Under the pieces are notes generated by a model. That model was not told the origin of the DNA. It worked only from the letters and a program-made list of their open reading frames with translations, and made no database searches. Made by a program: the position numbers and the translations under genes. Positions 58,620 to 64,000 of a stretch of DNA of 64,000 bases are shown in pieces. Source of the stretch: Eggerthellaceae bacterium (lineage in GTDB: Bacteria > Actinomycetota > Coriobacteriia > Coriobacteriales > Eggerthellaceae); NCBI GenBank assembly GCA_009782605.1, contig WRIR01000008.1:21934-85933 (forward strand). Reading direction: 5' to 3'. The first letter of the stretch is position 1, and every line of letters begins with the position of its first letter.

Positions 58620-59105
58620 TCAGGTATGTACGAGAATCCTGGAAAGTTCCTCACGTGTCTCGAACTTTTCCTCCTTTTCCGTCCGCACCATGAAGACCTC
58701 GCCCTCCCAGGTGTCGCTGCCGTAGCGGGTCGTCCGTATGTGACAGTGCGGGAAAAACTCCTTCTCATGAGGGAAATCGACTTTCTCAAAGCCGTATGTG
58801 AGGTCTTTGAGCACCTTGTCGATCGCGTCGACCGGGTGCGTGTGATCGTCAAAAGGGAATAAGCCGACCTCGGAATTGAATCCCGAGCGCTCCGAGACGT
58901 ATATCGTCCGGATATGTTCTCGGCGCTTCCGCTCGACTCGGACGATGGTGATAATGGCAATCGCCGTCATCGCCCACCATGCGACCGATATTACCAGGTC
59001 AAACACGTTGTCTGCCCAATTGAAACGGAGATAGTACCAGAACCCCAGCAAGAAGGCTGAGATAATGGTGGTCAGTACGTATGTGGTGATGTTCTTCCTT
59101 TTCAT
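58620..59105 (-). CDS. Two-helix membrane protein of unknown function
   Basis: 161 residues. Two hydrophobic segments (TTYVLTTIISAFLLGFWYYL, ~8-27; FDLVISVAWWAMTAIAIITIV, ~35-56) are followed by a soluble domain of ~105 residues with no recognised motif. The ATG at 59105 is preferred to the track's 59168; GGGGAACGAG precedes it. Related proteins may exist in other Coriobacteriia, but I recognise no named family. Confidence 0.65.
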   Translation of the reverse strand: MKRKNITTYVLTTIISAFLLGFWYYLRFNWADNVFDLVISVAWWAMTAIAIITIVRVERKRREHIRTIYVSERSGFNSEVGLFPFDDHTHPVDAIDKVLKDLTYGFEKVDFPHEKEFFPHCHIRTTRYGSDTWEGEVFMVRTEKEEKFETREELSRILVHT

Positions 59106-59672
59106 CGCTCGTTCCCCTGTTCTCACAATCACGGATTCTGCACATCCCCGGCTCATGCGGGGAGGCACACCGACGACACGGACAGGAGAACAGGGGGCGT
59201 TCCCTTTCCCGGCATCTGCGAAGAAGCCGAGGATTGCCTTGTTTGGGCAACAATGACCACCCCGTCACTACCACCCCTGTCACGCCGCCACGGCCAGCAC
59301 ACGGCCCTGCACAGCATCAACGTCGCTATTCCTTTGTCCTACTAAACTTCCACCCTTAGTATTGTTTGGGATTGTACCACATCCCGACCCATAGGAAAAC
59401 CCTTTTTATAAAGAAAGATTCTCAAGAATAAGGGGGCAAAAGGGGAGGATCCTGTGTCCCGACGTGTCAATGGGGACGTCTGGGTTGTCACGGAAGGGGC
59501 CCCCTGCCGGGGTGGGTAGGTGGTTCGGCAGGGGGCCCGAGTGCGTGTGCCTTGCGGCACGGGGCCCCCGGGGGCGGGGCGGGACTTGAGGCAGTAGGCC
59601 CCGGCCCCGGGGCGACGGCCGGGCGGCTGCGGGAACGGGAAGCCCGCACAGCCCCGGCCTTCGACTATCCTG
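59106..59672. other. Non-coding region with a strong hairpin
   Basis: About 565 bases without a convincing gene. The first ~290 bp form the upstream region of the membrane-protein gene. GGGCCCCCTGCCG (59497-59509) and its exact complement (59526-59538) form a 13-bp GC hairpin downstream of the sortase-tailed gene, a probable terminator or boundary element of the fibre cluster although no T-run follows. Confidence 0.6.
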
Positions 59673-61217
59673 TCACTCCGGGCGCTTGGGCAACGCCCTC
59701 CTGGAGCGGACAGCAAGGAGAAGGAGCGCCGCGCCGCTCAAGGCCGTCAGGGACGCCCAGAGCACGAGCCCGGCCGTGTCCCCGGTCTTGGGGGCGGGCT
59801 TGGGCTGCTCCGGCGGGGCCGGGGGCGGCGGGGGCGGGTCGTCGGGAGGCGGGGGCGGCGGGGGCGGGGGCGGCGGGTCCTCCTGGAGCTCGGCCGTCCA
59901 CACCCAGTGGATGAGGCCCATGAGGTCCTGGTACTCGTTGCCGAGCGCCGGGTCCACCTGGAGGCTGACGTTGAGGGCGCGCTCCTCGCCGGGGGCGAAG
60001 AAGCCTAAGGATATGTCGTTGCGCATGGCGTGCGGGTTGGGCTCGTCGGCGTCGGGGCGGCCCCAGACCGGGCCGTCGTAGACGGTCGCGCCGTCAGAGG
60101 CGGTGACGACCACGGCGACGTGCTCGCGCAGGAGCCGGTCGATGAGGGCCAGCTGCCCCTCGGTGAAGGCCGAGGGCGCGAGCAGGGCGAGGGCGGCGCC
60201 GTCGCTGCCGTCGGGGGTGCCGTCGCCGGCGGGGCCGCTGCCGTCGCCGGCCGCGGCCCCATCATCCGCGGCCGCGGCCAGGCGGGGGTCTGCGCCCTGG
60301 GCTATGTCCTCCGCCCGCAGGAACACCTCCACCCCGCGGGTGTAGGCGTTGGCCACCTCGATGGCCTGGGTGCGGGTCTCGCCGGGCATGAGGCGCTTGA
60401 AGTTGCCGAAGAGGTCGGTGCCCTCGGGGGTGAAGACGAAGTCGGCCGGGGCGCCGCCCATGAAGGTGGAGCGGGCCGGGAGGGCCTCCCGCCCGCCGGG
60501 CAGCCACTCCGGGATGCCCAGCGACTCGTGGGTCTTGCCCCAGGCCGAGGCGCCGCCGCCTGCGGCCTGCACGCACTCCATCCTGACCGTGATGAAGCCT
60601 GACAGCCCCTGGTACTCGTTGCCGAGCGCGGGGTCCACGGAAAAGCCGGTGAACAGCGGCTCGGAGGTCGTCTGGCCGGGTGCGAGCACGCCCCTGTAGT
60701 AGAAGTAGCCGTCGGCCTCGTCGTAGAGCCACATCGTGTCGTTGTAGTGGATGGCGATGCTGTCGGTGGGAAGGGCCTCGGCCGGGGCGGGGGACGCCGC
60801 GGCGGGCGCGGAGGCGGGCTCGGGCGCGGGGCCGCCCCAGCGCTTCTCCACCCTGACGCGCACGAGGATGTCGGCCTCGCCGGTGTTGGTGACGTTGACG
60901 GCCTTGTCCACCTCGGCCCCGGGGTATATCCCCTCGGCGCCGTCGTAGTCCTCGACTATGCGGGCGGCCACGCCCGCGGTGTCGATTATGTGGACGGAGT
61001 CGCCTATGAAGCGGGTGAGGGCCTGCGTGGTGCCCACCGCCCCGGCCACGAAGGCCGCGGCCAGGGCCAGGGCCGCCAGCACGAGCAGCCAGGGGCGTGC
61101 GGGCCGGGCGGCCTGCGCCGTTGCGGCTGCGGGCTGCGCCGGGGCGCCGTGCGGGGCGCCTGCGGGCTGCGGGGCGCCGTGCGTCATGGCGCCGTGTGTG
61201 TTGTTGTCGTGCGGCAT
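59673..61217 (-). CDS. Secreted surface protein with sortase-like C-terminal signal
   Basis: 514 residues. N-terminal hydrophobic segment (WLLVLAALALAAAFVAGAVG, ~40-62), then an extracellular region with two related parts, each containing VDPALGNEYQ followed by L, a poly-Pro stretch (about 11 Pro, then more) and a sorting-signal-like end: APKTGDTAG, a hydrophobic helix and an RSRR tail. The first part shares the GVAARIVEDYDG...YPGAEVDKAVNVTNTGEADILVRVRVEK pattern seen in SipW/TasA-type secreted proteins. The ATG at 61217 has GGAG five bases upstream. Last gene of the four-gene cluster; likely a wall- or fibre-anchoring component. Confidence 0.75.
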   Translation of the reverse strand: MPHDNNTHGAMTHGAPQPAGAPHGAPAQPAAATAQAARPARPWLLVLAALALAAAFVAGAVGTTQALTRFIGDSVHIIDTAGVAARIVEDYDGAEGIYPGAEVDKAVNVTNTGEADILVRVRVEKRWGGPAPEPASAPAAASPAPAEALPTDSIAIHYNDTMWLYDEADGYFYYRGVLAPGQTTSEPLFTGFSVDPALGNEYQGLSGFITVRMECVQAAGGGASAWGKTHESLGIPEWLPGGREALPARSTFMGGAPADFVFTPEGTDLFGNFKRLMPGETRTQAIEVANAYTRGVEVFLRAEDIAQGADPRLAAAADDGAAAGDGSGPAGDGTPDGSDGAALALLAPSAFTEGQLALIDRLLREHVAVVVTASDGATVYDGPVWGRPDADEPNPHAMRNDISLGFFAPGEERALNVSLQVDPALGNEYQDLMGLIHWVWTAELQEDPPPPPPPPPPPDDPPPPPPAPPEQPKPAPKTGDTAGLVLWASLTALSGAALLLLAVRSRRALPKRPE

Positions 61218-61255
61218 TGCGGCTCCTGCCTCCCTGTCCGTCCTTGCGGGGCCCC

Positions 61256-62014
61256 TCAAGGCACCCTCACCACGCCGGTGGCCTCGTCGAGGGCGGCGAA
61301 CGCCGCCTCGGCGCCGGGCATCTCGGCGGACTGTATCGCCTCGGCTGTCATGACCACCCGGTACCCGGGGCCTGTGCCGGGGGCCGCGCCCTGCAGCAGG
61401 GCGGTCTCGGCGGGGCCCCAGTCTATGGGGACGACCGCGTTGGTGAAGAGCACGGCTTTGCTGTGCTCCGGGTCGTCCACGTCGAAGATGTGGTTGTAGT
61501 TGTAGTAGGTGACGCCGGGGCTGCCGGCCTCGTGTCCCGCGTAGGTGAAGTCGTCCTGGTTGTAGACCTCGTACACCCTGCCCGCGGCAACGAGGGCCGC
61601 CAGGTCGGCCGCCGTGTAGGTGCCCGAGGTGGATATGTTGGGCGGGGGCGTGGGGTATGCGCGGTCGTGGAAGAGGGTGGCCAGGACGAGGTCGATGCGG
61701 GCCTGGTCGGTTATGAGGCCGCCCGCCCCGTCGTGGAGCTCCATGCGCACGCGCATGAAGCCCGCGCCCTCGGTGGCGGTGACCGTCGGGTCCTTCACCC
61801 GCACGCTGCCGGGCACGAGGTCCAGCCCGTCGCCGTCCTCCCAGCCCGGCTCGTCGAGGTCTATCCCTATCCTGCCGAGCGTGAAGGTGTTCTCCACCTC
61901 GTCGGAGTCGGTGAAGAAGGCCGCCGTCACGGCCCAGGCGACGGCGCCCGCGAGCGCGAGGGCGAGGCCCGCTACCGCGAGCGCCCTCCTGTCGGCTATG
62001 AGCTTCCTTGTCAT
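61256..62014 (-). CDS. TasA/camelysin-like SipW-type secreted protein
   Basis: 252 residues. Signal-like helix ALAVAGLALALAGAVAWAVTAAFFTDSDEVENTFTLG followed by IGIDLDEPGWEDGDG and DLVPGSVRVKDPTVT, the pattern of camelysin/TasA-type proteins processed by a SipW-like peptidase. The rest is beta-rich with FMRVRMELHD. No anchor at the C terminus. The track extends to 62665 in another frame context; the ATG at 62014 has AAGGAG upstream. Middle gene of a four-gene set. Confidence 0.78.
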   Translation of the reverse strand: MTRKLIADRRALAVAGLALALAGAVAWAVTAAFFTDSDEVENTFTLGRIGIDLDEPGWEDGDGLDLVPGSVRVKDPTVTATEGAGFMRVRMELHDGAGGLITDQARIDLVLATLFHDRAYPTPPPNISTSGTYTAADLAALVAAGRVYEVYNQDDFTYAGHEAGSPGVTYYNYNHIFDVDDPEHSKAVLFTNAVVPIDWGPAETALLQGAAPGTGPGYRVVMTAEAIQSAEMPGAEAAFAALDEATGVVRVP

Positions 62015-62060
62015 GTCATGGCTCCTTCTTCTCTCTCTTGCTCTCTCTTCCCGCGCCCTG

Positions 62061-62091
62061 CCGCCCGCCCTGTTCCGGGCCGGGCGGGCGG
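62061..62091 (-). terminator. GC hairpin between fibre-cluster genes
   Basis: CCGCCCGCCC (62061-62070) and GGGCGGGCGG (62082-62091) form a 10-bp stem in the 134-bp spacer between the second and third genes of the cluster. No T-run; it could be a partial terminator or an mRNA-processing hairpin setting different gene doses. Confidence 0.5.
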
Positions 62092-62148
62092 CGGGGGCGC
62101 AGGGCCGGGGCGGCGGGGGGACGCGCCCCCTGCCGCCCGGGGCGCCCT

Positions 62149-62841
62149 TTAGGCCTGCGCGAGGACGTCGAGCAGCGCCGGGGTGGCGGCTGCGAGGTCC
62201 GCGAAGGCGTCGTACTGCACGGCGGCGCCCTGGAGCACTATGTTGATGCCGCCGAGCGTGTCGCGCAGCCAGTCCATGTCGGCCGGGGTCACCGTGGGGT
62301 TGACGGCCACCTGGGTGAACAGCGGCACGGTGGTGGCGTTGGGCGCCACCTCGTGCCTGTAGGCCCAGGCCTGGGCCGCGCTGTCGGCGGCGCCCGTGGC
62401 GCTGGAGTCCGCCAGCTGCCAGTCGGCCGTGTTCCAGTCGATGCTTATCAGGCCGAGCAGCCGCGCCGCCTCGGCGTCGGTGAGGTTCCTGCCCGCGCCG
62501 TCGGTGAAGCGCAGGCCTATGGCCACCCACTCGCTGACGCGGTTGGCCGAGGTGTTGGTCACCTGCGGGTCCTTGGGCACGCGCGCGCCGGGGACCAGGT
62601 CGCGGGCGCGGTCGCGCCCGGGCCGGGTGTCGCCGTCGGGGTCGTTGGGGTCGCCCTCGTCCCACTTGGGCTCGGTGAGGTCGGCCTCGATGTTCTCGGC
62701 GAAGGTGAACTCGTTGGTGACGGGGTCCGTCTTGGAGAAGAGGTAGGCCGCCGTCAGGCCCGCCGCGACGACGAGCGCCAGCAGCAGGGCGAGGACGGCT
62801 ATGCGCCCCTTGCCCCTCTTGGTTTCAGTCGTGTTTCCCAT
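62149..62841 (-). CDS. TasA/camelysin-like SipW-type secreted protein
   Basis: 230 residues. Signal helix IAVLALLLALVVAAGLTAAYLFSKTD, then NEFTFAENIEADLTEPKWDEGDP, DLVPGARVPKDPQVTNTSANRVSEWVAI and IDWNTADWQLA, closely related to the next gene upstream. Typical SipW/TasA-type arrangement (cleaved helix, beta-strand start NEFTF). ATG with GGAGGCTGAG upstream. Second of three paralogues. Confidence 0.8.
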   Translation of the reverse strand: MGNTTETKRGKGRIAVLALLLALVVAAGLTAAYLFSKTDPVTNEFTFAENIEADLTEPKWDEGDPNDPDGDTRPGRDRARDLVPGARVPKDPQVTNTSANRVSEWVAIGLRFTDGAGRNLTDAEAARLLGLISIDWNTADWQLADSSATGAADSAAQAWAYRHEVAPNATTVPLFTQVAVNPTVTPADMDWLRDTLGGINIVLQGAAVQYDAFADLAAATPALLDVLAQA

Positions 62842-62868
62842 AGTCTCAGCCTCCTAGTCCCGGCGCGC

Positions 62869-63843
62869 CTACGAGGTCAGCCCGTCGTAGGGGTTGGCCT
62901 CGAAGAGCGCCAGGAGGGCGTCTATGGTCGCCTGGTCGTCCGGGGCGTCCATGCCGTCGACCATCGACTGCACCACTGCCGCGCGCAGCACGATGTAGAA
63001 GCCGCCGATGGTGTCGGGGGGCTCGCAGCCGCAGTCGGGGTCGGTGCCGCTGGACACGTTGTAGAGGCAGTCCGCGTCGTGCACCTGGACCGGCATGCAG
63101 TCGCAGGCCTCGGTCCCGAGCATGCCGCCCGGCCCGACCGCATCGGCGCCGGCCATCTCGTAGATGGCGCACATCGTGTGGTGGCGCCAGGTCTTGGGGT
63201 CTGTGCAGGTGCAGGGGTTCTCGAACAGGTCGCAGGCGTCGGTGTGGGTCATGGTGAAGCCCGACAGCCACGCGTACTCCTCGTCCCAGTCGAAGCCGGC
63301 CGGCAGCGGGCCTTCCATCATGTCCTTGGTCCTGATGGTGACGCTGCTGAACAGCGGGGTCGTCACCTCGCCGGGGGCGAGCTCGTGCTGGTAGACCCAG
63401 ACCTGCTCGGCCGCGTCGGCCATGTCGGGGTCGGCAAGCGCCCAGTCGACGGTGTTCCAGTCGATGTCGAGCATGCGCAGCAGGCGCCCCACCCAGTCGT
63501 CGTCGGCGGGGTCGTCCGAGAGCATGTTGCCCTCGCCGTCGGTGAAGTTCACGCGGACGGCGGCCCACTCGGAGACGCCGTTGCTCGACGTGTTGGTGAC
63601 CATCGGGTCCTTGGGCACCTGGGCGCCCGGGACCAGGTTCTCGGCCAGGCCCGGGTCCCAGTTGGGCTCGGTGAGCTTGCCGCGGATGTTGTCTGCGAAG
63701 GAGAAGGCGTTCTCCTTCTGGTCGGTTATGGCCGACAGGTAGGCCAGCGTGGCGCCCAGCGCCAGCAGCACCGCCAGCACCGAGGCCAGTATCACGGCCT
63801 TCTTCCTCTTCTGCGGGTCCATCGTGCGAATCTTCTCTCTCAT
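62869..63843 (-). CDS. TasA/camelysin-like SipW-type secreted protein with Cys-rich insert
   Basis: 324 residues. Signal helix AVILASVLAVLLALGATLAYLSAITD, then NAFSFADNIRGKLTEPNWDPG and DLVPG-equivalent NLVPGAQVPKDPMVTNTSSNGVSEW, paralogous to the gene at 62149. It differs by an insert (~200-280) with about nine cysteines (CDLF..PCTCTD, CDCMPVQVHDADC, CGCEPP) that could form disulfides or bind metal outside the cell. Start at 63843 with AAGGAGGCAC upstream. First gene of the cluster in this window. Confidence 0.8.
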   Translation of the reverse strand: MREKIRTMDPQKRKKAVILASVLAVLLALGATLAYLSAITDQKENAFSFADNIRGKLTEPNWDPGLAENLVPGAQVPKDPMVTNTSSNGVSEWAAVRVNFTDGEGNMLSDDPADDDWVGRLLRMLDIDWNTVDWALADPDMADAAEQVWVYQHELAPGEVTTPLFSSVTIRTKDMMEGPLPAGFDWDEEYAWLSGFTMTHTDACDLFENPCTCTDPKTWRHHTMCAIYEMAGADAVGPGGMLGTEACDCMPVQVHDADCLYNVSSGTDPDCGCEPPDTIGGFYIVLRAAVVQSMVDGMDAPDDQATIDALLALFEANPYDGLTS

Positions 63844-64000
63844 CTTGTGTGCCTCCTTCTTGCCTGGGGGGCCTTCCGCCCCCCTGCTCCTTGCTCCTTG
63901 GCTGTCGCCATTGCCTGTTGCCTGTCCTTGCCTTGCTTGCTGTCCTTGCTTGCTTGCTTGTTGCCCTTGCCTGCCTGCCGCTCCTTGCCTGCTGGTTCCT
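63844..64000. other. Low-complexity leader of the fibre cluster
   Basis: A hairpin GGGGGGC/CTTCC/GCCCCCC (63866-63884) sits just before the ribosome site, and 63890-64000 is made of short imperfect CCTTG/CTTGC/CTGCC repeats (CAAGG/GCAAG on the coding strand). No ORF. It may be part of an untranslated leader or upstream gene's 3' flank. Confidence 0.6.

Follow-up and report, generated by a model that had tools for sequence, protein, structure and literature searches.

The window analysed here, a stretch of 64,000 nucleotides from contig WRIR01000008.1 of an Eggerthellaceae bacterium of the gut, ends in a cluster of four minus-strand genes for secreted proteins (59673-63843), and the question raised by this locus is what the four products build together on the cell surface. 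We consider it likely that the window holds the 3' part of a SipW-dependent fibre operon of the TasA/camelysin/BsaA type, cut by the contig end, whose products would form a heteropolymeric, wall-anchored fibre. Fibres of the TasA/BsaA type are known from work on Bacillus and Clostridium, and the gene set described below probably builds one that is anchored to the cell wall and akin to the biofilm fibres that TasA makes in Bacillus.

The four genes and their family

The four open reading frames, here named C, D, E and F from the upstream end, were confirmed on the minus strand as C (62869-63843, 324 amino acids), D (62149-62841, 230 amino acids, without Cys, with orthologues in all complete clusters described below), E (61256-62014, 252 amino acids) and F (59673-61217, 514 amino acids). 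Each is preceded by a good ribosome-binding site, which places the starts at 63843, 62841, 62014 and 61217 and corrects two of them, that of E to the ATG at 62014 and that of F to the ATG at 61217 (site aggagccgcaATG; an alternative TTG start at 61259 would give 528 amino acids). The intergenic gaps are 27 bp (C-D), 134 bp (D-E) and 38 bp (E-F), short as in an operon. At the N-terminus of C, D and E, a basic, hydrophobic signal of the SipW type precedes an aromatic residue and an N-x-F or T-x-F...E-P-x-W block; in C, the signal peptide and a putative N-terminal donor-strand segment with the conserved N-x-F...E-P-x-W block, LGATLAYLSAITDQKENAFSFADNIRGKLTEP, lie at 63664-63792. F is longer than the other three, and its translation comprises two beta-rich segments, a poly-proline stalk (59799-59876, with a tandem repeat at 59811-59877) and a sorting tail (59673-59795) in which APKTGD is followed by a hydrophobic segment and RSRR...KRPE (RSRRALPKRPE). 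The tail matched TIGR03063 (srtB_target) weakly, at 14.8 bits against a cut-off of 18.15. An earlier note on this DNA had described three consecutive SipW-type genes and a fourth, larger one with a related segment, a poly-proline stalk and a sortase-like tail, in a Coriobacteriia-like genome; all of these features were confirmed, the lineage being Eggerthellaceae, with the metagenome-assembled genome (MAG) Eggerthellaceae bacterium Nt197P3bin53 (WRIS01; same genus, hereafter the sister genome) as the nearest named relative.

A profile of D matched C at 2e-65 and E at 1e-14. When 24 D-group proteins from Coriobacteriales (the D group) were aligned, profile-profile comparison of the D group with E gave a probability of 99.4 and an E-value of 2e-21, and that with F a probability of 97 and an E-value of 1.2e-10. 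Judged by sequence, this mutual similarity is far beyond chance, and the four products are exported homologues with predicted alternate (SipW-type) signals. Among family models, residues 92-204 of F matched NCBIfam TIGR04090 (BsaA family SipW-dependent biofilm matrix protein) at 2.2e-14, with 53.8 bits, just below the cut-off of 60. E exceeded the cut-off of TIGR04088 ('cognate_SipW') and matched the Pfam camelysin family (Peptidase_M73) weakly and below its cut-off, with an E-value of 0.038, while C was below the TIGR04088 cut-off by hmmscan (15.6 against 19 bits) and at the cut-off in a six-frame genome search. The D protein of the window matched no family model at an E-value of 0.01 or less, including TIGR04088, TIGR04090 and Peptidase_M73; within the D group, TIGR04090 was matched by 19 of 24 proteins, PF12389 (Peptidase_M73, camelysin) by 13, and TIGR04088, the SipW-type signal, also by 13 at that threshold. 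Membership of the predicted cluster proteins in the SipW-dependent TasA/camelysin/BsaA superfamily is supported; the earlier note had read the set as TasA/camelysin-like. Neither the wide D-group profile nor those of C, D, E and F gave a relevant match in a sequence search of the PDB, and no relatives were found in the viral contigs searched.

The subunits differ markedly in cysteine content, with nine Cys in C and none in D or E, and D has a single His. C carries a Cys/His-rich insert (63016-63246) of two C-x-C-x(n)-H-x(n)-C modules with flanking Cys, and the Cys and His of these C-x-C-x(n)-H(H)-x(n)-C modules are invariant in six paralogues and orthologues. A similar module occurs once in the large protein A of the complete clusters (CTCENGLHDAANAEC), and in the examined loci the motif is otherwise confined to C proteins and A, apart from two unrelated frames. 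The insert may act by metal binding or by disulphide locking, both of which are possible.

Complete clusters, signal peptidases and the lost upstream part

The assembly contig stops exactly at window position 64000, inside the cluster, with nothing readable beyond a short-repeat leader upstream of C (63844-64000). Paralogous clusters on contigs C1 and C26 of the same genome have the order A-B-Bp-C-D-E-F, where A is a secreted protein of about 1,670 amino acids without a sorting signal and B and Bp are two further paralogues of the subunits. The same order is kept in two clusters of the sister genome, one of which contains a SipW gene between D and E, which gives A-B-Bp-C-D-(SipW)-E-F as the complete arrangement. 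The co-occurrence of the four genes elsewhere, for which the earlier note had suggested searching, is found in these clusters. From the gene order in the complete clusters, Bp, B and A are expected upstream of C in the window. The earlier note had expected a SipW-like peptidase and further partners just past 64,000, where the assembly stops. In complete clusters the partners do stand upstream of C, and the peptidase gene of the sister cluster sits between D and E instead of upstream.

A fourth F tail was found at the start of contig C12, with 94% DNA identity to the F tail of the window (contig C8). Contigs C1, C26, C8 and C12 all break inside clusters, and the copies may therefore be undercounted. 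Protein identities among the copies in this genome range from 53 to 77%, and apart from the C8 and C12 tails the copies appear to be divergent cassettes, not recent duplicates. PKTGD is invariant in five full F copies. An orphan gene for the Cys/His-insert subunit C is located on contig C18 (L046:3279-4301), upstream of an rpsB-like gene and with a methionyl-tRNA synthetase-like gene on its other side. The sister genome contains further fragments besides its two clusters, and it alone was matched, at two loci, when the collection of named genomes was searched with the C profile.

The earlier note had staked its reading on a SipW-like peptidase in the genome, and two peptidases over the TIGR02228 cut-off are encoded there. 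One (C4:51291) stands alone and aligns closely with the in-cluster SipW of the sister genome. The other (C5:108982) starts a second, different cluster (L003:8341-11746) comprising SipW, a BsaA-family protein (TIGR04090 at 1.2e-28, over the cut-off), a PKTGD-tailed Pro-rich protein and a frame of about 1,560 amino acids. In alignments, both peptidases show the catalytic-type Ser (SMTP/SMDP) and His (THR) of the SipW/endoplasmic reticulum type. A third peptidase, on contig C13, is below the cut-off and in our reading of its sequence has the Lys of an ordinary signal peptidase I. SipW would thus act in trans on the cluster of the window, unless a further copy lies beyond the contig end.

Several side observations were also made. 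The SipW on contig C5 has a long Ala/Pro-rich N-terminal extension. Very large surface proteins with F-like PKTGD tails are encoded on contigs C4 (L042:17455-19500) and C11 (L051:4650-8999), in open frames of 5,675 and 4,883 amino acids, the latter read through one TGA; these tails suggest that a single sorting motif is in common use in this genome. In the sister genome, a gene pair that resembles AbiEi/AbiEii by eye lies between two cassette copies (L049:1281-2713). Palindromes resembling repetitive extragenic palindromic elements, in two exact copies of GCGGGTCGGGGCCCGCAATGAC, lie between D and E in the C1 cluster (L040:10198-10335), and no such palindrome was found in the window. Downstream of the window cluster, a gene for a putative membrane protein (58620-59168) gave no meaningful match in the family search.

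Comparison with TasA and rival explanations

We then compared the D group with Bacillus subtilis TasA, using a sequence whose residues 28-261 were checked to agree with PDB 8AUR along the whole chain. The D-group profile scored 40 against TasA (hhalign), above every control, the highest scores being 32.7 for the real signal joined to shuffled mature TasA and 26.1 for non-family proteins. In TasA, the donor-strand residues are F29, I32 and F39 (PMC9674648), and a 'proline box' including P62 is reported to be the most conserved element of the protomer interface among camelysins (PMC10151520). The Pro of the L-x-P-G box (P84 of D), which aligns with TasA P62 in the profile alignment, and K90 are invariant in all 24 D-group sequences, and the Phe of N-x-F (F45 of D), at least 90% conserved in the same sequences, falls near TasA F39, the residue-level correspondence being our reading of that alignment. 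Within the D group, the conserved parts are the signal with the N-terminal segment, the L-x-P-G...K box and the C-terminal strand, and the TasA protomer interface falls among these regions (PMC10151520, PMC9674648). This pattern fits donor-strand assembly without proving it.

Several results weigh against a fibre operon of this type. The mature D-group profile scored 19.2 against mature TasA, within the range of shuffled mature TasA (up to 19.8), and identity to TasA is low; the mature-part comparison therefore points to superfamily membership, orthology with TasA of the B. subtilis type is not claimed, and it is the N-terminal region, together with the family models, that ties the cluster directly to TasA. 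The cluster of the window itself lacks a SipW gene, its upstream part being lost at the contig end. The structural evidence is weak: the model of C, built from an 11-row alignment, has an N-terminal helix and a beta-rich core with a predicted local distance difference test (pLDDT) score of 67 (below 50 in the insert), had no Foldseek match under an E-value of 0.001, and matched the TasA fibre 8AUR third, with an E-value of 0.019 and a probability of 0.28. For the model of F (three rows, pLDDT 50), 8AUR had the highest probability in the list, 0.98, with an E-value of 0.0063 and rank 25 by E-value. For the TasA fold that the earlier note had made a condition of its reading, F offers a match and C a faint one, both from low-confidence models, and a TasA-type beta-sandwich is at most suggested for the two.

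Three other explanations were weighed against the fibre operon. The name of the matched Pfam family, camelysin metallo-endopeptidase, would suggest secreted metallopeptidases in place of structural subunits. The label, however, is an inherited family name, the content of D in His and Cys is too low for an HExxH zinc site, and the conserved regions are those of the interface described above; the peptidase reading was rejected for D on residue content, and for the cluster we hold it to be very unlikely. A classical sortase-polymerized pilus of the SpaA type, with subunits joined by isopeptide bonds, would agree with the sorting tail of F and with the sortases of the genome, three of which are located together on contig C19 and one on contig C15. 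Yet F is the only member with a sorting signal, C, D, E, B and Bp having none. The C19 sortases (L044) adjoin their own pilin-like genes with LPxTG-like tails and apparently belong to a classical sortase pilus of their own. The sequence fetched around the complete clusters showed no sortase, the sortases of the genome being on other contigs. In Clostridium perfringens, moreover, the sipW-bsaA operon gives rise to SipW-dependent filamentous polymers for which the neighbouring sortase is not needed (PMC7395162). This very unlikely model was rejected, the sorting signal being on F only and no neighbouring sortase having been seen in those stretches.

The products might also form a surface layer, or be separate surface proteins that do not co-polymerize. 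Such a reading would accommodate the strong divergence of the paralogues in size and insert, and polymerization of the cluster proteins is itself inferred. On the other hand, the order of the subunit genes is kept between clusters and between two species, the interface motifs are conserved, and the BsaA and TasA relatives polymerize (PMC7395162, PMC9674648), which makes this explanation distinctly unlikely in our judgement.

For the preferred fibre operon, we infer fibre formation, the order of the subunits and the roles of F, A and the insert as follows. SipW would cleave the signals after export and expose the N-terminal strand, and B, Bp, C, D and E would join in a mixed polymer through the donor-strand exchange known from TasA; heterofilaments of TasA and CalY in Bacillus cereus are a precedent (PMC13082335). 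F, a relative with two domains, would form the fibre base, fixed to the wall by sortase through PKTGD and spaced from it by the Pro-rich stalk, and the large, unanchored A may be an adhesin held via the fibre. The Cys/His insert could lock or bridge C through metal or disulphide bonds, and the several divergent cassettes could provide alternative fibres processed by a shared SipW. A bolder version, in which the F copies (at least four) and the orphan C constitute a repertoire of interchangeable wall-anchored hetero-fibres, with SipW acting in trans, a separate version of A for each, and the Cys/His modules of C and A serving as a metal or disulphide lock between fibre and adhesin, is a speculation that we regard as rather unlikely.

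Distribution and comparison with known systems

Relatives were detected with the C profile in 24 of 399 Coriobacteriales genomes, representing 17 genera. Outside the genus of the window, a SipW gene adjoins a D-like gene in 15 of 18 loci; of the other three, one meets a contig end, one has a fused frame and one is a cluster that lacks SipW in the stretch read. Most of a dozen neighbourhoods read also contain a protein with a sorting tail and a large secreted one. Multi-cassette genomes of this type were seen in G000 (the genome of the window) and G002 only, and a search of the collected papers for SipW together with Eggerthella gave no match. The sets found across Coriobacteriales, in which several subunits linked to SipW are accompanied by a wall anchor and a large secreted partner, are candidate surface fibres in gut Actinobacteria, and the recurring combination of an unanchored large protein with a sorting signal on one TasA-like member provides a testable model of a non-covalent donor-strand fibre tied to a Gram-positive wall. 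The protein family is ordinary and fibres of this kind are known; what appears new is the presence of at least four divergent F-bearing cassettes that putatively share a SipW acting in trans, together with a Cys/His insert in C that is specific to the genus, and the interest of the locus lies in this multi-cassette organization, the wall anchor, the recurring unanchored large protein and the Cys/His subunit.

Among known systems, the sipW-bsaABCRSD operon of C. perfringens shares SipW-dependent export, an extracellular filament-forming family and TIGR04090, which is matched by F and by the C5 protein. The clusters described here differ from it in having as many as five paralogous subunits together with a member that carries a PKTGD anchor and a large protein that has none, in a SipW gene located elsewhere in the genome, in the below-cut-off score of F, and in that no two-component genes were seen in the cluster. 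TapA-SipW-TasA of B. subtilis (PDB 8AUR, 5OF1) has in common the SipW-type signal, the N-terminal aromatic residues, the L-x-P-G...K box and, as the models suggest, a beta-rich fold, whereas identity is low, the mature parts are not significantly similar, and the system here is multi-subunit, wall-anchored and present in several cassettes. The CalY and TasA system of B. cereus (PF12389) likewise has several paralogous SipW substrates per operon and forms TasA-CalY heterofilaments (PMC13082335, PMC10151520), but it has been described as sortase-independent with a chaperone-like CapP, while the operon here includes a sorting-signal protein. The SipW-adjacent clusters of other Coriobacteriales likewise contain SipW and a D-like protein, often B-like and E-like proteins, and commonly a large secreted protein and one with a sorting tail, whereas the Cys/His insert of C was found only in the genus of the window.

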